From: an uncultured Aquimarina sp.
Lineage (GTDB): Bacteria; Bacteroidota; Bacteroidia; Flavobacteriales; Flavobacteriaceae
DNA length: 64,000 bases
Assembly: GCA_947489685.1 (NCBI GenBank)
Contig: CANLEM010000006.1
Location: forward strand, 1 to 64,000
Direction: 5' to 3'
The position numbers and the translations under genes were made by a program. The notes under the pieces were generated by a model. It worked only from the letters and a program-made list of their open reading frames with translations, had not been told where the DNA came from and ran no database searches. This document shows, piece after piece, positions 8,278-55,656 of the stretch. Each line of letters starts with the position of its first letter. Position 1 is the stretch's first letter.

Positions 8278-9324
8278 CTAAGGGTTTTTGTTTTTAATTT
8301 CTCCACGTACCATTTTACCAGAATCCGTAAGTTCGTCTTCGGTCCAATTACCTAATCCACTGGCTCCGGGTTTAAGAGCTGCAGAAAGCTCTTGTTTGTC
8401 TGCAATAGACCAGTTGCACCAGGATATTTTGTTTTGATCCAGAAAATCCCACCAAATTTGAGCTTCGTTTGCATCAATAGATCCGTCTCCGGATGCTTCG
8501 GTAATACCGTATTCTGTAACAAAAATAGGAAGTCCCGCATCTAGTGCTTTTTGTGCTTTATCTCTTAAAAATTGTTTATGAGTCGCCGCATAATAATGCA
8601 AAGTGTATGCAACATTAACATCATTGATCTCATTTCCGATCACTTCATCTACATCCTGAGACCATGTTCTGGTACCGCAAATAATCAAGTTGTCTGTATC
8701 ATGCTGTCTAATCGCAGCAATTACTTGTTCATGATAAGGTTTTAGAACATCGTTCCATGATACATTAAGAGGTTCATTGTATATTTCGTATATAATATTG
8801 GGTTTATCACCATATTTTTGAGCAACCTCAGAAAAAAAGGATTTTGCCTCGTCTATGTGATCCTCGGCATGATGACTATGCCAATCGATAATAACATAAA
8901 TGCCTTCTGCAATAGCTGCATCAATAACCGTGAATATTTTTTGTTTTTCAACTTCTCTATTGCTAAGATATCCATCACTATCTTCAACGCCCATGGCAGC
9001 TCTGATAATATTACAATCCCAATCTTCTTTTAACCACTTTACAGTTTCGGGAGTATAATATTGCCCAATCCATTGACTCCAAAATAGAGACATACCTCTT
9101 AATTGAATACTGTTGTTGTTTTTATCAACAATTCTATTTCCTGAAACTTGTAATAGACCGTATGCGTCTACAATTGATGAGTTTGTATTGGGATTACCTG
9201 TAGGCTCTTCGCTACCATCGCCGCCATCTTGATCGGTTTCGGGTAAAGTATCCGAATCAGACTCACAAGCCGTAGTTAACCAAAAGGTAAAAAAGAATAC
9301 AATTAATGTAGTAAAAATCCTCAT
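8278..9324 (-). CDS. GH5-family glycoside hydrolase lipoprotein (endoglucanase-like)
   Basis: The 348-residue protein opens with a lipoprotein signal peptide ending in WLTTAC, then a flexible Asp/Glu/Gly/Ser/Thr-rich linker to about residue 50. The catalytic barrel follows, with GH5 landmarks: RGMSLFW, the acid/base in YEIYNEPL (Glu near 183), a histidine pair in TLHYYAATH, and the nucleophile in FVTEYGI (Glu near 271). It looks like the GH5 subfamily 2 endoglucanases, so beta-1,4-glucan or a related marine glycan is the likely substrate. No SusC/SusD pair or other CAZyme is adjacent, so it is not in an obvious polysaccharide-utilisation locus. It is probably anchored in the outer membrane. 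Confidence 0.88.
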   Translation of the reverse strand: MRIFTTLIVFFFTFWLTTACESDSDTLPETDQDGGDGSEEPTGNPNTNSSIVDAYGLLQVSGNRIVDKNNNSIQLRGMSLFWSQWIGQYYTPETVKWLKEDWDCNIIRAAMGVEDSDGYLSNREVEKQKIFTVIDAAIAEGIYVIIDWHSHHAEDHIDEAKSFFSEVAQKYGDKPNIIYEIYNEPLNVSWNDVLKPYHEQVIAAIRQHDTDNLIICGTRTWSQDVDEVIGNEINDVNVAYTLHYYAATHKQFLRDKAQKALDAGLPIFVTEYGITEASGDGSIDANEAQIWWDFLDQNKISWCNWSIADKQELSAALKPGASGLGNWTEDELTDSGKMVRGEIKNKNP

Positions 9325-9391: not shown

Positions 9392-10327
9392 TTATGAAAT
9401 GTTTTCTTTCTTTTTGAAAGACATGACGATAAAATAAATTCCAGCAAGTATAAATGGAATACTAAGCCATTGTCCGGTAGATATTGCATCCCCCAAGGCA
9501 TCTTCAAATCCACCTTGACTTTTCTTAACAAATTCAACAAGAAATCGCACTGTCCATAATAATATAAGAAAAGCTCCAAAAAGAAATCCAGGGTTATGTC
9601 TTTTGTCTGTTTTCCAATATACAAGCCATAAGATTAAAGCCACAAAAACATATCCGAATGCTTCATACAATTGTGCAGGGTGTCTGTAGGGTACAGCATC
9701 TAATAAATTAGAAAATTTAGGATTTTCAACAACTGCGGCATAGGCTTCGTTTACATTCTTTATTCCTGTTTCTTTTACAACTTCATATTTTTTTATACCA
9801 TCACGAACAAATTTTACTCCAAATGGAGAATCACCAGATTCTTTCCCGATAATTTCAGAATTAAAAAAATTACCTAAACGAACGAATATGGCTCCAAAAG
9901 CAACAGGGATAACGATCCTGTCCAAAATCCAGAGTATATTTTTTTTAATGACATTTTTAGAATAATAATACATGGCTATTATGATACCGATAGCAGCACC
10001 ATGACTCGCTAAACCTTGAAAACCTATAAACTCAAACTCTGGTTTAAACCTAAATGGTAATATAATTTCGAGTAAATTGTTTTTGTAGTACCCCCAATCG
10101 TAAAAGAATACATGTCCTAAACGAGCTCCAACAAGGGTTGCGATTACGGCATAAATAAAAATAGAATCTAATTTTTCGATAGAAATATTTTCACGTATGT
10201 ATATTTTTTTCATCAGAAACCAACCCAAAGAAAATGCAATTACAAACATTAAACTGTAAAAGCGAATTACAAAAAAACCAAGATCGATACCTTCAATAGG
10301 GTTCCATAAAATTTTTGATAATATCAT
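9392..10327 (-). CDS. lgt: Prolipoprotein diacylglyceryl transferase (canonical copy)
   Basis: This 311-residue inner-membrane enzyme transfers diacylglycerol from phosphatidylglycerol to the lipobox cysteine of prelipoproteins. Canonical Lgt features are present: GARLGHVFFY, the catalytic-histidine segment LASHGAAIG near residue 109, VRLGNFFNSEIIG near 149, RHPAQLYE near 215 and VRFLVEFVK near 262. There is an insertion of roughly 40 residues before RHPAQLYE, common in Bacteroidota. It starts 56 bp downstream of yidD on the same strand. A second, divergent Lgt-family gene lies at 48376-49107, and this one is clearly the housekeeping copy. Confidence 0.95.
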   Translation of the reverse strand: MILSKILWNPIEGIDLGFFVIRFYSLMFVIAFSLGWFLMKKIYIRENISIEKLDSIFIYAVIATLVGARLGHVFFYDWGYYKNNLLEIILPFRFKPEFEFIGFQGLASHGAAIGIIIAMYYYSKNVIKKNILWILDRIVIPVAFGAIFVRLGNFFNSEIIGKESGDSPFGVKFVRDGIKKYEVVKETGIKNVNEAYAAVVENPKFSNLLDAVPYRHPAQLYEAFGYVFVALILWLVYWKTDKRHNPGFLFGAFLILLWTVRFLVEFVKKSQGGFEDALGDAISTGQWLSIPFILAGIYFIVMSFKKKENIS

Positions 10328-48375: not shown

Positions 48376-49107
48376 ATGGATATTCCTTTTGAACCTATTG
48401 TTTTTGGTGTTAAAGTGAATATCCATTTAATTTTAGAGTATGCTGCATTTTTTATTGGGTTTAGGTATTATGTCTACCTAAAAAAGCGCAGTAATGACCT
48501 AATATCTTCAAACAATAGATTATCTATTATTATAGGTGCCGTTTTTGGTGCTTTTTTGGGTTCTCGAATTATAGGTTTTTTAGAAAATCCAGTTTTGTCT
48601 TCTGGACCAGAGTACCTGTTATTGGTGCTAAGTGCCAAAACTATTATGGGAGGCCTTTTTGGGGGGCTTTTAGGAGTAGAATTCGCAAAGAGAATTATCG
48701 GAGAAAAACAATCTTCGGGTGATTTATTTACGTTCCCTATTATATTGGGTATCCTTATTGGTAGAATAGGTTGTTTTTTTGCAGGGATCAACGAGTTTAC
48801 CTATGGAAAAGCAACTTCTTCAATTCTAGGAATGGATTTGGGAGATGGTGTAGCAAGGCACCCTATTGCATTATATGAGGTGATTTTTCTGTTCATTTTA
48901 TGGATTGTTTTAAGTAGGTTTCAAAATCAGATTAAACGAGAAAATGGGCTGTTGTTTAAATATTTTATGATCGCTTATTTCTTGTTTCGATTTTGTATAG
49001 AGTTTTTGAAACCCAATACATTTTTAATTTTAGGATTAAGTAGTATTCAGTATTTATGTATCTTATGCATGATTTATTATAGGAGAACTATTCGAAAACT
49101 TTTTTAA
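48376..49107 (+). CDS. Divergent Lgt-family membrane protein (paralogue)
   Basis: A 243-residue, roughly seven-helix membrane protein of the Lgt family. The frame is recognisable: GSRIIGFLENP, KTIMGGLFGG (88-97), GRIGCFFAG (129-137), RHPIALYE (161-168) and RFCIEFLKPN (205-214). Compared with the canonical copy at 9392-10327, the catalytic-histidine segment SHGA is now IMGG, and GNFFNSE is now GCFFAGI. It is also about 70 residues shorter. The Arg in GRIG and the later Arg are kept. A changed donor or acceptor is likely. Its stop shares a base with the start of the radical SAM gene (TAATG), so the two are coupled. Confidence 0.85.
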   Translation: MDIPFEPIVFGVKVNIHLILEYAAFFIGFRYYVYLKKRSNDLISSNNRLSIIIGAVFGAFLGSRIIGFLENPVLSSGPEYLLLVLSAKTIMGGLFGGLLGVEFAKRIIGEKQSSGDLFTFPIILGILIGRIGCFFAGINEFTYGKATSSILGMDLGDGVARHPIALYEVIFLFILWIVLSRFQNQIKRENGLLFKYFMIAYFLFRFCIEFLKPNTFLILGLSSIQYLCILCMIYYRRTIRKLF

Positions 49108-50501
49108 TGCCTACTAGAAAATATACTTATTACGATTATACATTGAGCTTATGTCCTACATGTCTTAAAAGAATTGATGCCAAAATTGTTTTTGAAGAAG
49201 GTAGGGTTTTTATGCTTAAACGTTGTCCAGAACATGGCCGATCAAAAGTATTGATTGCTGATGATATCGAATATTATAAAAATATAAGAAACTATAATAA
49301 AGCTTCAGAATTTCCATATAAATTTAATACAACCACGGATTATGGTTGCCCTTATGATTGTGGATTGTGTCCTGATCATGAACAACATTCGTGTTTAACC
49401 ATTATCGAAGTAACTGATCGTTGCAATCTTACATGTCCTACTTGTTATGCCTCTTCATCTCCTAATTATGGGAGACATCGATCTCTGGAAGAAATAAAAA
49501 AGATGTTGGATACCATAGTTGAGAATGAAAAAGAGCCAGATGTGGTTCAAATTAGTGGAGGGGAACCTACAGTGCATCCTCAGTTTTTTGAGATTTTGGA
49601 TTATGCAAAACAATTACCTATTCGTCATTTGATGTTAAATACTAATGGGATTCGTATTGCCAAGGATCAAAAATTTACAGAACAATTGGCTAGTTATATG
49701 CCGGATTTTGAGGTGTATTTGCAATTTGACTCGTTACAAGCCGAGGTATTAGAAAAATTAAGAGGTGAAGATCTTACTGCCGTACGAAAACAAGCTATTG
49801 CACATCTTAATGCTGTAAATCTATCCACGACATTGGTAGTAACATTAGAAAAAGGGCTGAATGATGATCAAATAGGAGATATTATTTCTTTTGCAACAAA
49901 ACAAAAATGTGTTAGAGGAGTCACTTTTCAGCCTACTCAGATCGCTGGTCGGTTAGAGAATTTTGACACGCAAACTGATAGGATAACGCTAACCGAAGTT
50001 AGGAGAAAAATATTGGAACAGTTTCCTGTTTTCGAAGAAGATGATCTTATTCCTGTACCATGTAATCCAGATGCATTGGTAATGGGATATGCCTTAAAGA
50101 ATGAAGAAGGCATTTTACCTCTTACTAGGTATATTAATCCTGCAGATTTATTGGATAATGGTAAAAATACTATTGTTTATGAGCAGGATGAGGAGTTACA
50201 TGGTAAAGTTCTTGAATTATTTAGTACAGGTAATTCTGTCGAAACTGCTTCAGAAAATCTAAAATCCATTATGTGCTGCCTTCCCGAAATCGATGCGCCG
50301 GATTTGGGATATGATAATTTATTCAGAATTATTATTATGCAATTTATAGATGCATATAATTTTGATGTAAGAGCTATTAAAAAGTCTTGCGTTCATATTG
50401 TAAATAAGGATTATAAAATTATTCCTTTTGAAACTATGAACTTGTTTTATAGAGATGATAAGCAAGCTTATTTAGAACAACTAAGAAAAGAAACGATATG
50501 A
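49107..50501 (+). CDS. Radical SAM enzyme, MJ0619/tetraether-synthase-like
   Basis: A 464-residue radical SAM enzyme. The SAM cluster motif is CNLTCPTC (C106, C110, C113). Before it, the N-terminal zone has CPTC (16-19), CPEHG (40-44) and CPYDCGLCPDH (81-91, plus C96), enough for a rubredoxin-like site and an extra iron-sulfur cluster. The Gly-rich strand is ISGGEPTVHPQFFEI. More cysteines follow in VPCNPDA, IMCCLPEID and KKSCVHI. This layout resembles the MJ0619 group that includes archaeal tetraether lipid synthase; the likeness is from memory. It overlaps the lgt-like gene by 1 bp and the next gene by 4 bp. Substrate unknown, lipid suspected from the partners. Confidence 0.82.
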   Translation: MPTRKYTYYDYTLSLCPTCLKRIDAKIVFEEGRVFMLKRCPEHGRSKVLIADDIEYYKNIRNYNKASEFPYKFNTTTDYGCPYDCGLCPDHEQHSCLTIIEVTDRCNLTCPTCYASSSPNYGRHRSLEEIKKMLDTIVENEKEPDVVQISGGEPTVHPQFFEILDYAKQLPIRHLMLNTNGIRIAKDQKFTEQLASYMPDFEVYLQFDSLQAEVLEKLRGEDLTAVRKQAIAHLNAVNLSTTLVVTLEKGLNDDQIGDIISFATKQKCVRGVTFQPTQIAGRLENFDTQTDRITLTEVRRKILEQFPVFEEDDLIPVPCNPDALVMGYALKNEEGILPLTRYINPADLLDNGKNTIVYEQDEELHGKVLELFSTGNSVETASENLKSIMCCLPEIDAPDLGYDNLFRIIIMQFIDAYNFDVRAIKKSCVHIVNKDYKIIPFETMNLFYRDDKQAYLEQLRKETI

Positions 50502-50716
50502 TACTAAATTCAATCGCATTAGAACCTGGAAATCTTGATGGAATTATTTATCTAATTCTTTTAATCCTATTAGGTCCGCCCATATTTCTTGCTATTATAG
50601 GACTTATTCTTTTTAAGACAAAAAGCCGTAAAGCCGGGAAGGTGTTCTTTATCCTGGCAGGAATTTATTTAGTAGTAGGATTAGGAATTTGCGGAGCATT
50701 AATGGCTGGGTTCTAA
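50498..50716 (+). CDS. Small two-helix membrane protein coupled to the radical SAM gene
   Basis: A 72-residue protein with two predicted membrane helices (IIYLILLILLGPPIFLAIIG, then VFFILAGIYLVVGLGICGAL) joined by a short basic loop (FKTKSRKAGK). It overlaps the radical SAM gene by 4 bp (ATGA), so it belongs to the same transcript and is translated with it. No known family comes to mind. It may hold the enzyme at the membrane or assist its substrate; this is inference. Its end overlaps the converging methyltransferase gene by 4 bp. Confidence 0.75.
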   Translation: MILNSIALEPGNLDGIIYLILLILLGPPIFLAIIGLILFKTKSRKAGKVFFILAGIYLVVGLGICGALMAGF

Positions 50717-51534
50717 ATTCTTTCTAAAAGAAATAAAGATTCGTTTAGAATTTCTGATTTATTAGATATGTTCTGATCGGGAGCATACTTTTTACAAAGC
50801 TCAAACTCATCGGTATATTCTTTTAATGAGTACCCGTTTATATTTAAAAAATAGTCATGCGGGATGGTTTGATGCGAAAAAGAATCATTGGTATCATTAT
50901 TACTATCAAAATAATTTAATAAACGACTGTAAACTTCTGTTTTTTCTACCTCGGGTAAATATGTGACACACCCCACGATATCTCCCGGCTTTTGTAATTT
51001 CTTAAAAACTTCAAATAATTTATCAGTTGTTTCGCGATTTAAAAAGAAGAAAACGCCTTCAATTATTATAAATGTAGGTTCTTTTTTAATGAGTGGGGTA
51101 AGGGATGTTAACATTTCATCCGTTGTCTTGTGATTAAAATCTATTGACGCATACTGTATATCTCTAGACGGTAACTTTCTTTCTTTTACCCAAGCATCAA
51201 CTTTTTCTTTTTTGTAATCGACGATATCTTTTTTGTCAATCTCGATCGTAGCTATTGTGTTGTTTAAAGAGAATTGATACATACTAAAACCAGATCCAAA
51301 ATTTACTAAGGAACCTGTATTCTTGTCTTTAAAAAAGGATTTTAGAGATTCGTAAAAAAAGCGATTTCTTAAACTATGTAATGCAGCTTCATGTTTAGAA
51401 ACTCTATTTAAGATGTCGGGTATTAAGGCATCTGTTGCTGGATTGTTCCATAGCCGAGCATAAATATCCTTGCTGATATCTTCGTGATACGATCGGTATG
51501 TTGATACAACAAAAGCGGTTTCGTGAACTTGCAT
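50713..51534 (-). CDS. Leucine carboxyl methyltransferase (LCM)-family class I methyltransferase
   Basis: A 273-residue SAM-dependent methyltransferase. The SAM-binding loop is VNFGSGFSMYQF near residues 78-89, and the acidic strand with IATIEIDKKDIVDYKK follows. A second LCM landmark is FIIIEGVFFFLNRETT. Members methylate carboxyl groups of small molecules or proteins; the substrate is unknown. It faces the lgt-like/radical SAM run tail to tail with a 4-bp overlap, so it is a separate unit. A functional link is possible but unsupported. Confidence 0.85.
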   Translation of the reverse strand: MQVHETAFVVSTYRSYHEDISKDIYARLWNNPATDALIPDILNRVSKHEAALHSLRNRFFYESLKSFFKDKNTGSLVNFGSGFSMYQFSLNNTIATIEIDKKDIVDYKKEKVDAWVKERKLPSRDIQYASIDFNHKTTDEMLTSLTPLIKKEPTFIIIEGVFFFLNRETTDKLFEVFKKLQKPGDIVGCVTYLPEVEKTEVYSRLLNYFDSNNDTNDSFSHQTIPHDYFLNINGYSLKEYTDEFELCKKYAPDQNISNKSEILNESLFLLERI

Positions 51535-52985: not shown

Positions 52986-54179
52986 TCAAACAAACTGCAA
53001 TCTTTTAAAATCTTTATTCAAAATCGAGTGGTCATCTACATCTAACCAATTATTTAAAATAGTAGCATAAATACTTCTAAAGTCTACCGTATATTTAATA
53101 TCCCCATTATTGTCTAAATCATTTAAGTTAGGGAGTTCGTTGTATACGCCAGCTTTTTTTAAAGAACCTCCAATAGCTATTACATTGTTTGCAGCGCCAT
53201 GATCAGTTCCTCTACTTCCATTTTGTTTAACCCGGCGGCCAAATTCAGAAAAAGTAAGAATAAGAGTGTCTTTAAATCGATCATTTTTTTTAAGATCCTT
53301 TACCAATGCTCCAACTCCTTCGGCATAAACCTGTAATAAACGATCTTGACTGTTTAATTGATTTACATGGCTATCAAAACCGCCAAGAGAGCTATAAAAC
53401 ACCCTTGTTTTTAAGCCCGAGATAATAAAATCGGCAATTGTTTTAAGGCTTTTGGCAAAATGATTCTGCGGATATTCTGTTTTGGTCTGGTATATTTTTG
53501 AGGTTTCATGAATATAAGAAGCCGACGAGTAGGTTTCTAACATTGTTTTGTATAAATATCCTTGGTTGTCTTCGCCCAACATCTCTTTTTGAGCATTGGC
53601 AACAATAGTGTTAAAAAAGGGTTCTCGAGTGGTACGATACAGTTGATTAGGGTCAGAAACTGCAATACCATTCATGTGATTTCCTTTCAAGGCTAGGGAG
53701 AGAGAATTGTCTACTTCTATAGCTTGGTACGGATGCTGGCAATTGGCGTCCAGATATCGGCCTACCCAACCTGTTGATAGATACTGATTTGTATCGCTAG
53801 CCGTTTGCCAGATATCCGTACTTCTAAAATGAGATCTGTTAGGGTTTGGGTATCCAACGTTGTTAATGATGGATACTTCACCAAGATCATATAGGTCTTT
53901 AATAGCTTTTAGATGATTATTAAAAGCTAAATCATTAGTTATTTTTAATGTTTGATTTACTTTTTTGGCTATTAGGGGTCTTGCACTATGATAAATATCG
54001 TTACTAATAGGAATAATAGTATTTAAACCATCGTTTCCTCCTGATAGTTGAATAATAATTACATTTTTATATCCAGATAACTGATCAGGTGATAGCAACT
54101 CCATACCCTTTAAAAAAGAAGGGATTAATGCCATACCTGAGGCAAAAACGGATTGTTTTAAAAAATCTCTTCGTTCCAT
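52986..54179 (-). CDS. DUF1501 secreted protein
   Basis: A 397-residue protein of the DUF1501 (sulfatase-like fold) family. The N terminus MERRDFLKQSVFASGMALIP is a twin-arginine (TAT) signal. Family segments are IIQLSGGNDGLNTIIPISND, NRSHFRSTDIWQTA, VFYSSLGGFDSHVNQ and FSEFGRRVKQNGSRGTDHGA. Function is not known. It follows its usual partner, a DUF1800 gene, by 13 bp on the same strand. Confidence 0.93.
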   Translation of the reverse strand: MERRDFLKQSVFASGMALIPSFLKGMELLSPDQLSGYKNVIIIQLSGGNDGLNTIIPISNDIYHSARPLIAKKVNQTLKITNDLAFNNHLKAIKDLYDLGEVSIINNVGYPNPNRSHFRSTDIWQTASDTNQYLSTGWVGRYLDANCQHPYQAIEVDNSLSLALKGNHMNGIAVSDPNQLYRTTREPFFNTIVANAQKEMLGEDNQGYLYKTMLETYSSASYIHETSKIYQTKTEYPQNHFAKSLKTIADFIISGLKTRVFYSSLGGFDSHVNQLNSQDRLLQVYAEGVGALVKDLKKNDRFKDTLILTFSEFGRRVKQNGSRGTDHGAANNVIAIGGSLKKAGVYNELPNLNDLDNNGDIKYTVDFRSIYATILNNWLDVDDHSILNKDFKRLQFV

Positions 54180-54192
54180 ACTTTTATTGGTT

Positions 54193-55593
54193 TTAGCAAA
54201 GTTGATATTCGGGTAAACTCATTAATTCGATAATAAAACTATTTGTATCATTTTCATCAAGGCTAGATATAATGTGTTTTGCGGCTTCAGAAATTTCTGG
54301 TTGTAGTATAAAGCTAATTATTTCGTTTTTGGTTTTTGGTTCAAAATTAGATAGGAAAGAGTTCCACTGGGGTTTTGCTTTTATTTTTTTTTGAAGTCTG
54401 GATTTTATTTTTTTATAAGCTTCTTCTCTCATTGTCATTATACTTTCTGGTATATTTTCTTTGTCATGCCACTCAATAACTCCGTTGTTTAAGATCAAAG
54501 AGGCCAGTTTTAATCTTAACATTAAGGTTGAATTATCAATCCATGATTTTCCTCCTGGCCAACCTGCTACGTTTGGAGGGAAGAATAACATTTGATTTAA
54601 TTTCTTCTGAAGGTGTATAAGTACTTTGGTGTTCTGATATTGCACTTTAAATGGTTTGCTAAGACCTACCAGCAATTCGATCGGGGATTTGATTTTAACA
54701 CCTATGTTTTCATTATCATAAAACCAATCACTAGCAAATATGACTCTAAACAATGTTTCGAGGTTATAATTGGCATTGTAAAAAACTTGAGTAAGATATT
54801 CTATGTGATTTTGATTCAGGGTATCATTTACAAAATATGTGTATAGCTTTTGTACAATGTATCTTGCAGTTTGTTTTTCTTTTAAAAGTATGTTGATAAC
54901 ATCGTCTCCGGTAAAATTTCCTGTTTTACTTAAGATCGTTTTGGCGCCAGAATCATGATGTTGCTGCCTGAAAATAAATGCCCCTTTGTAATTAAAATTC
55001 CATCCGGTAAATGCTCTTGCCGCTTCTTTGATATCGGTTTCAGTATATCCGTTGTCTCTACCCAGCGTAAACAACTCCATCACTTCTCGTGCAAAATTTT
55101 CATTGGGATGATCTTTTCTGTTTTGACGATTGTTCAAAAAAAGAAGCATAGCAGGGGATTTGGATACCTCCATCAGCATATCTCCAAAATTTCCTAAAGC
55201 ATATTTACGAATTATATTGTTGAGGTGCAGGCAAGCTCTGGGGGTTCTGAGTCGTACCGAAAAATGATCATGAAAAAATAAGGTAATCTTTTCACGAAGT
55301 ATCTGATTGGTTTCGATTAATTGCCGAAACCAAAGCGCATTGAGCTCAGACATTTTTTGATTCCGAAGTTGTCTTAATTGCTTTCGTTCTTCACGAGATA
55401 CATCTTTTTGTTTCTTTTGCAGTGTTCCAAAATCCATAGACAAAGGGGTACTCTGTTCGCTCGCCAGGAACAAATTATCTACAATCTGTTTTTTATTAAG
55501 ATGTCGAATAGTTTTTAATTCGCCAGAAGAAATCCCAAAACCTGCCCGCCAGTATAGGTGTTGTATTTGTTTGTCTGATAATGGAGCACTCAT
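54193..55593 (-). CDS. DUF1800 protein
   Basis: I use the ATG at 55593 (466 residues, MSAPLSDKQIQHLYWRAGFG); a GTG two codons earlier is an alternative. Family marks are HLYWRAGFG, FFHDHFSVRL, NENFAREVMELFTLG and the GWNFNYKGAF segment, with NVAGWPGGKSW near residue 370. It lacks an obvious signal peptide, unlike the TAT-exported partner. The pair is widespread and its role is unknown. No regulator or transporter lies beside it. Confidence 0.93.
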   Translation of the reverse strand: MSAPLSDKQIQHLYWRAGFGISSGELKTIRHLNKKQIVDNLFLASEQSTPLSMDFGTLQKKQKDVSREERKQLRQLRNQKMSELNALWFRQLIETNQILREKITLFFHDHFSVRLRTPRACLHLNNIIRKYALGNFGDMLMEVSKSPAMLLFLNNRQNRKDHPNENFAREVMELFTLGRDNGYTETDIKEAARAFTGWNFNYKGAFIFRQQHHDSGAKTILSKTGNFTGDDVINILLKEKQTARYIVQKLYTYFVNDTLNQNHIEYLTQVFYNANYNLETLFRVIFASDWFYDNENIGVKIKSPIELLVGLSKPFKVQYQNTKVLIHLQKKLNQMLFFPPNVAGWPGGKSWIDNSTLMLRLKLASLILNNGVIEWHDKENIPESIMTMREEAYKKIKSRLQKKIKAKPQWNSFLSNFEPKTKNEIISFILQPEISEAAKHIISSLDENDTNSFIIELMSLPEYQLC

Positions 55594-55656
55594 AGTCACA
55601 GTGTTTGTTATTAAGACTGTGATTATAGTAAAAGGTTTAATTAAAAAGGAGTGCTG

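Follow-up and report, generated by a model that had tools for sequence, protein, structure and literature searches.

A conserved gene set encoding an Lgt-like protein, a Tes-like radical SAM enzyme and a small membrane protein with an invariant cysteine: a candidate lipid-modification module in Bacteroidota

Three genes lie together on the plus strand of a 64,000-nucleotide stretch of DNA from an uncultured Aquimarina sp. (contig CANLEM010000006.1 of assembly GCA_947489685.1; hereafter the window). The first codes for an Lgt-like membrane protein of 243 residues assigned by Pfam to the LGT superfamily (48376-49107), the second for a multi-cluster radical S-adenosylmethionine (SAM) enzyme of 464 residues that resembles Tes, the archaeal lipid-joining tetraether lipid synthase (49107-50501; Radical_SAM and Zn_ribbon_HMPTM domains), and the third for a small membrane protein of 72 residues with two hydrophobic helices, the probable substrate, whose homologues were found by BLASTP (50498-50716). 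The open reading frames (ORFs) share 1 bp (TAATG) at the first junction and 4 bp (ATGA) at the second, and this layout and the two-helix third protein agree with a preliminary description of the same DNA. Among the matches listed, the radical SAM gene has its nearest named relatives in Aquimarina, at up to 92%. We tentatively propose, with a confidence that approaches but does not reach an even call, that the three genes make up one module in which cysteine 65 (C65) of the small protein would accept a lipid from the Lgt-like enzyme, and lipid chains would be modified by the radical SAM enzyme. This invariant cysteine, unmentioned in the preliminary description, is in our view the key part of the module.

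Relatives of the radical SAM protein were sought across genome contigs with a 12-row alignment, and the best 80 of at least 569 stretches were kept; the Lgt-like and small genes at these loci were identified by BLASTP with the window proteins. A same-strand Lgt-like gene was found in 78/80 loci; in 66 of these it ends no more than 100 bp away from the radical SAM gene. The two loci without one are cut off, with just 0 and 72 bases of sequence upstream. All 80 loci carry a homologue of the small protein, which has one match only in its own genome at E ≤ 0.1, and we therefore rejected the idea that the small gene is a chance ORF. The named loci belong chiefly to Flavobacteriia, and also to Saprospiraceae, Cyclobacteriaceae, Fulvivirga and others.

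The pairing was also apparent at the level of whole genomes. In a sample of 198 Bacteroidota genomes, searched with thresholds of E ≤ 1e-50 for the radical SAM gene and E ≤ 1e-15 for the Lgt-like gene that were chosen after the match lists had been inspected, each gene occurs in 18, and 17 genomes have both, compared with about 1.6 expected under independence; of the remaining two, G066 has the radical SAM gene alone and G017 the Lgt-like gene alone. Three further genomes with matches at E ~1e-11 were scored as having an ordinary Lgt because the residues corresponding to H103 and N146 of Escherichia coli Lgt are present. The co-conservation for which the preliminary description had called thus holds both by locus and by genome. 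For 30 of 34 listed genomes (G222, G312, G316 and G343 are outside the count), the Lgt-like gene was looked for and found in 28; the two without it are G066 and G302. The G066 enzyme is above the cut-off of the Tes model (493.8 versus 450), and neither the Lgt-like nor the small cysteine partner was found at the Tes-type genes of these two genomes. In G034 and G272, the Lgt-like and radical SAM genes are both present, yet unlinked.

These data bear on the explanation that the genes are neighbors retained by shared ancestry without joint function. The prevalence of Flavobacteriia among the named loci would fit it, as would the few flanking genes that recur, by eye, among close relatives: one such gene lies upstream in L034, L037 and L039, and downstream of L035, L036 and L038 there is a GTPase-like gene. 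Among most relatives, however, the flanking genes differ while the module stays, gene order varies between loci, G034 and G272 have both genes even without linkage, and the pair recurs in Actinomycetota. We regard simple co-inheritance, already disfavored, as highly improbable. That co-conservation persists through rearrangement and separation of the genes supports the proposed module.

The occurrence in Actinomycetota came from the 6 of 10 plasmid records with a radical SAM relative that were examined. Records from Mycobacterium avium, M. branderi and Nonomuraea have an Lgt-like gene close to the radical SAM gene, and a Persicobacter (Bacteroidota) plasmid also carries the pair. The Nonomuraea record of 11.9 Mb, labeled plasmid, is probably a chromosome; the M. 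avium (L137), M. branderi (L195) and Persicobacter (L135) pairs are on large plasmids, showing that the pair can be plasmid-borne. The radical SAM relatives of Mycolicibacterium vanbaalenii and of the archaeon Halorarius adjoin methyltransferase genes instead of an Lgt-like gene, and no Lgt gene appears within the 6 kb shown. A variant arrangement, L047/L162 and L048/L163, has the order radical SAM, ICMT/PEMT-family methyltransferase, DUF4395-type protein, Lgt-like and small cysteine protein (ICMT/PEMT called by Pfam; DUF4395 matched by Pfam in L162 alone and assigned by eye in L163), which L196 resembles by eye. In variants of this type, the methyltransferase and DUF4395-type genes may add a methyl step.

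In further support of the proposed module, pairwise distances among Lgt-like proteins correlate with those among their radical SAM partners (r = 0.90 over 30 pairs, 0/5000 permutations), also inside the 23 core pairs (r = 0.85, 0/5000 permutations); shared species history contributes to this correlation.

The sequence, the fold and the metal motifs of the radical SAM enzyme point to kinship with Tes. Its closest solved relative is GDGT-MAS/Tes of Methanocaldococcus jannaschii (7tol, E 2e-71). The preliminary description had compared it with an MJ0619 group that includes Tes; the kinship stands but the group does not, as MJ0619 is the Tes enzyme itself (PMC9433317). A rubredoxin-type metal site is formed by C16, C19, C40 and H43 (49152-49235, plus strand), the cysteines being kept in 37/37 rows and the histidine in 36/37, and its spacing, C16-x2-C19-x20-C40-x2-H43, equals in the alignment that of the Tes motif, reported as C9X2C12X20C33X2H36 (PMC9433317). 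An N-terminal [4Fe-4S] motif follows (C81, C85 and C88 with H91 or H94; 49347-49388, plus strand), invariant in the 12-row alignment; in the 37 rows, the C81 column differs in L049, L137, L139, L195, L138 and L200. The radical SAM CxxxCxxC motif itself (C106, C110 and C113; 49422-49445, plus strand) is present in 37/37 rows. Further along, M411 of the window protein takes the place of Met439 of Tes. Its closer relatives keep this Met, which is replaced in L047, L048, L196, L049 and the actinobacterial sequences. C319 has no counterpart in Tes.

The enzyme is nevertheless no plain member of a named family. Its best NCBIfam match, nearly full length, is TrsS (NF045646), at 337.4 against a cut-off of 490, and it scores 296.8 with the Tes model NF045702, whose cut-off is 450. 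In an LG+G4 tree of 37 rows, 32 Lgt-associated sequences were split with an ultrafast bootstrap of 95 from Tes, the Tes-type Bacteroidota genes L050 and L200, and the two methyltransferase-linked genes; this tree was made with a single model and a small number of outgroups and contains a very long branch. We therefore rejected plain Tes and plain TrsS as identities: the protein is under both cut-offs and branches apart from Tes. As to the family placement proposed in the preliminary description, the enzyme does not fall in a known non-lipid family, but its best match is TrsS and it stands apart from Tes. The AlphaFold2 model is weak (predicted local distance difference test [pLDDT] 65, predicted template modeling score [pTM] 0.66) and was used for fold kinship alone, with 7tol as the top PDB match.

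The Lgt-like protein belongs to the LGT superfamily (81 bits with Pfam LGT, cut-off 24.9), as the preliminary description had recognized, and scores below the cut-offs of three Lgt equivalog models (TIGR00544, 46.7 versus 118.9; NF000778, 43.5 versus 334; NF009611, 16 versus 636). Its AlphaFold2 model (pLDDT 82, pTM 0.80) has E. coli Lgt (5azb, E 2e-6) as the sole PDB match at E ≤ 0.001. The host genome has two ordinary-looking Lgt genes in addition, one elsewhere in the window and one on contig 2, and both are better LGT matches, which led us to reject a role of the Lgt-like protein as the main Lgt of the cell.

Residues of Lgt were compared between 33 Lgt-like rows and 7 comparison Lgt rows. 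Both arginines reported to line the lipid pocket of Lgt, R143 and R239 (PMC4728403), are kept in 33/33 Lgt-like rows, as R130 and R205 of the window protein, and E243 corresponds to E209 (R205 and E209, 48988-49002, plus strand), with Glu or Asp in 33/33. Also kept are R161 (29/33), H162 (32/33), P163 (33/33), Y167 (32/33) and E168 (33/33). Other positions have changed: the place of Y26 is H17 (48424-48426, plus strand), with His in 29/33 Lgt-like rows and Tyr or Phe in 7/7 comparison rows; the place of H103 is M91 (48646-48648, plus strand), with His in 0/33 versus 6/7; and that of N146 is C133, with Cys in 33/33 (R130 and C133, 48763-48774, plus strand). The protein is also shorter in the stretch preceding the HGG place of Lgt. 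Cysteine at the N146 place occurs in 1/7 comparison rows, L165, which is the other Lgt of G017 and falls beside the 33 Lgt-like rows in a tree where their clade has low support (62). The Lgt-like gene of G017 is L160 (6653-7498, minus strand), and no small cysteine protein was seen near it. H103 is reported as not absolutely conserved among Lgt proteins and N146 as Cys in some distant ones (PMC13251419). The pattern suggests that the Lgt-like enzyme may have kept the donor site and altered the acceptor site, with the histidine at the Y26 place possibly substituting for H103. The retention of both arginines, together with that of the Tes metal motifs, supports the proposed module.

The small protein has no Pfam or NCBIfam family above cut-off, with one sub-threshold match to BphX. 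In an alignment of 80 rows made up of the window protein and 79 homologues, where the coordinate step left L128 unplaced, it has an invariant cysteine, C65 (50690-50692, plus strand), in 80/80 rows, which is the sole cysteine in 68. Glycine stands at -2 in 79/80 and at +1 in 73/80 rows, Tyr57 is kept in 77/80, and the tail after C65 has 4 to 8 residues in 78/80. The mean charge is -1.6 for the N terminus, +4.4 for the loop between the helices and 0.0 for the tail, and the loop is more positive than both ends in 80/80 rows. Positively charged loops lie on the cytoplasmic side of membranes (the positive-inside rule), and the Lys/Arg-rich loop before helix 2 thus places C65 at the predicted periplasmic end of this helix. 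The acceptor cysteine of Lgt sits at the end of the signal helix of a lipoprotein, and the predicted geometry of C65 is that of such an acceptor. The succession of a positive segment, a hydrophobic helix and an invariant cysteine at the outer face fits a lipoprotein, as judged by sequence only.

The cysteine is kept in small proteins that have otherwise diverged. A second set of 33 further loci, some of them close relatives of the window, includes 29 with a linked Lgt-like gene. At 28 of these, 26 by script and two by eye, we found a small membrane protein that bears a C-terminal cysteine. The latter are L049, where the script hit was false, and L139, which it missed; suitable proteins are present at both. 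At L199, the remaining locus, the contig edge lies just past the radical SAM gene. The small proteins of L040, L041, L043, L045 and L046 are unmatched in BLASTP with the window protein, and the diverged proteins share little besides a helix and the near-terminal cysteine, which lies in a G/S-x-C motif in 24/26 (exceptions, L045 and L201a). Among the four further loci without a linked Lgt-like gene, L197 has a small protein of this type, and the script search found none at L042 and at the Tes-type loci L050 and L200; a looser search at L200 gave one upstream ORF of 60 residues with a cysteine.

As controls, we took other ORFs of 45 to 200 residues with at least two helices, called mechanically in the DNA that flanks the module in the window and at the 80 loci. 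The same cysteine rule was satisfied by 14/60 of them, compared with 28/29 Lgt-linked loci, a difference that supports the proposed module; with G/S-x-C added, the control count was 8/60. Under a stricter cysteine rule it was 10/40, or 6/22 once relatives were removed, and one of these ORFs (L061) adjoins the module. This ORF, at 8285-8612, codes for a multi-helix protein of 108 residues downstream of the module. With its terminal IGLGVCASFV, this protein looks like a longer version related to the small protein.

Small genes are often duplicated. In 17/80 loci, the aligned copy is separated from the radical SAM gene by a second small ORF, which has the cysteine in 15/17, and tandem copies also occur in L041, L044, L195, L198, L201, L206 and L137. 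Given their size, frequent duplication and variability around a constant cysteine, the small proteins resemble precursors of ribosomally synthesized and posttranslationally modified peptides (RiPPs). The radical SAM enzyme might then modify the small hydrophobic protein, which the Lgt-like protein would lipidate or chaperone afterwards. Tes and MoaA are followed, among the fold matches of the radical SAM model, by the peptide maturases SkfB and SuiB, and a hybrid of lipoprotein and peptide pathways is on record for another enzyme family (PMC12636315). Tes is by far the best match in both fold and sequence, however, and a Pfam scan of the radical SAM protein found no peptide-recognition domain. 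If the charge rule holds, the cysteine lies across the membrane from the enzyme, and no constant neighbor besides the module was seen by eye in unannotated neighbor lists. We consider a peptide-modifying role doubtful.

A different function for the two invariant cysteines would be a partnership: C133 in the Lgt-like protein and its small-protein counterpart C65, both without exception in the rows compared and both expected near the outer face, might form a disulfide or bind a metal, with the radical SAM enzyme maturing the cofactor. The L162 variant includes a DUF4395 protein with several cysteines, which would suit such a role. As it leaves unexplained why both lipid-binding arginines of Lgt are kept in all 33 Lgt-like proteins, we judge this redox or metal function improbable.

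A further explanation has the module acting on free membrane lipids and modifying them, the Lgt-like protein binding or trimming a phospholipid, the radical SAM enzyme joining or altering acyl chains, and the small protein serving as a scaffold with a structural cysteine. Tes acts on free lipids and is reported to contain bound phospholipids when made in E. coli (PMC9433317), and the loss of H103, which has been proposed to meet the acceptor (PMC4728403), alongside the retained lipid-binding arginines would suit this explanation. A scaffold leaves unexplained, however, the near-invariant cysteine of the diverged small proteins and its retention in most second copies. We hold the free-lipid explanation to be unlikely, though deserving of weight.

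The proposal that the Lgt-like enzyme has C65 as its acceptor and that the radical enzyme works on lipid chains is drawn from the occurrence of a near-constant cysteine in variable, duplicated small proteins beside an LGT-fold and a Tes-like enzyme. A phospholipid would be the donor of a diacylglyceryl-type group, which the Lgt-like enzyme would attach to C65. The product would remain a two-helix protein bearing the lipid near its C terminus, since cleavage by signal peptidase II is not expected with a bulky residue, usually Ile or Val, at -1 and few residues after C65. From the cytoplasmic side and with Tes-like chemistry, the radical SAM enzyme would abstract a hydrogen from an unreactive carbon of the C65-bound chain or of a neighboring lipid and join this carbon to another or to a sulfur. 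We infer this chemistry from module conservation, residue patterns and the charge pattern, and with it a modification of lipids or of a lipoprotein at the membrane, as the preliminary description had surmised. A more specific form of the proposal, in which the dedicated Lgt-fold enzyme lipidates the C-terminal cysteine and the Tes-like enzyme welds the attached chains together or to neighboring lipids, giving ring-shaped or membrane-spanning anchors in Bacteroidota and Actinomycetota, is speculative, and we would rate it as unlikely.

Several observations weigh against this proposal. G017 has the Lgt-like gene and no radical SAM match in its genome, and a search of G034 for the small protein found none. 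In the Lgt-like protein, H103, Y26 and N146 are all changed, though each is required in E. coli Lgt, along with R143, G154 and R239 (PMC13251419), and the protein may thus transfer nothing. On the side of the radical SAM enzyme, TrsS, whose function is unknown, outscores Tes in NCBIfam; I431 replaces Tyr459 of Tes, which with Met439 is reported as fully conserved in 1000 archaeal homologues and was found to be nonessential (PMC9433317); and the window protein has Glu where Tes has a C-terminal Cys (E442 column). The actinobacterial partner enzymes are without the N-terminal cluster cysteines, which are absent from the Lgt-linked L049, L137, L139 and L195 and, at the aligned columns, from L138 in part and from L200. 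The cysteine-bearing ORF of Nonomuraea is not tiny, with 368 residues and a proline-rich N terminus, and the intervening small copies of L066 and L088 are without Cys; in L066, the aligned copy is the second, and the first, Cys-less copy is the best BLASTP match.

The C65 motif is a further point of this kind. The lipobox of signal peptidase II substrates is [LVI][ASTVI][GAS]C after an N-terminal signal. The small-protein motif reads L-G-I-C near the C terminus, with Ile at -1 in 55/80 rows and Val in 14/80, and so is not a canonical N-terminal lipobox.

Beyond the module, the window carries an LCM-family methyltransferase gene (50713-51534, minus strand), TIGR00027-like and below the TIGR00027 cut-off, which is convergent with the small gene and shares 4 bp with its end. 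Neither this gene nor the SulP gene upstream was retained as part of the module, as relatives have, by eye, other neighbors at these places. Two adjacent genes at 52986-55599 (minus strand) resemble the DUF1501/DUF1800 pair in their motifs. The second LGT gene of the window (9425-10288, minus strand) scores 188.8 bits with Pfam LGT and has the residues of H103 and N146.

Each part of the module is a diverged member of a known superfamily. The radical SAM enzyme shares with Tes/GDGT-MAS (MJ0619, 7tol) the fold, the domain order, the rubredoxin-type site and both cluster motifs; unlike Tes, it has a separate branch, the residue differences described above and, as partners, an Lgt-like and a small cysteine protein. 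Its likeness to TrsS likewise stops short of the family cut-off, as does that of the methyltransferase-linked relatives from M. vanbaalenii and Halorarius. The Lgt-like protein resembles Lgt in Pfam family, fold and the R143, R239 and E243 equivalents, and differs in the lost H103, Y26H, N146C, the shorter stretch before HGG and the equivalog scores. Y26H and N146C also occur in MSMEG_5408, the second Lgt homologue of Mycobacterium smegmatis, recorded as a presumed weak Lgt in an account whose available text mentions no radical SAM partner (PMC13251419).

In the open-licence PubMed Central (PMC) literature, we found no account of the Lgt-like/radical SAM pair as a system. The available text of three papers names Lgt and radical SAM proteins without linking them (PMC8939145, PMC7641849 and PMC3877243). 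Radical SAM and lgt-type genes are adjacent on a stretch of about 3.5 kb in Pseudarthrobacter single-cell genomes and jointly absent from one of the four (PMC12010503), a passing mention that, in the text available, gives neither a function nor a small protein; these genes may belong to the module families, and their joint absence would then favor the proposed module. The diacylglycerol-bearing DAG-RiPPs resemble the proposed module in passing a ribosomal peptide through lipoprotein lipidation in Bacteroidota, but as described in the text available they rely on ordinary N-terminal signal peptides and MNIO enzymes (PMC12636315), where the module has a C-terminal cysteine, a dedicated Lgt-like protein and a radical SAM enzyme. 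As far as the literature searched goes, the three-part module is undescribed.

The module points to a lipid modification absent from that literature and supplies a testable partner for Lgt homologues that carry Y26H and N146C. Tes homologues are reported from bacteria, where it has been proposed that they make branched glycerol dialkyl glycerol tetraethers or membrane-spanning lipids (PMC8941075 and PMC11868695). If the branch described here serves a module acting on a protein cysteine, bacterial Tes homologues alone would be no evidence for membrane-spanning lipids, which would bear on the assignment of sources to these lipids in geochemistry.

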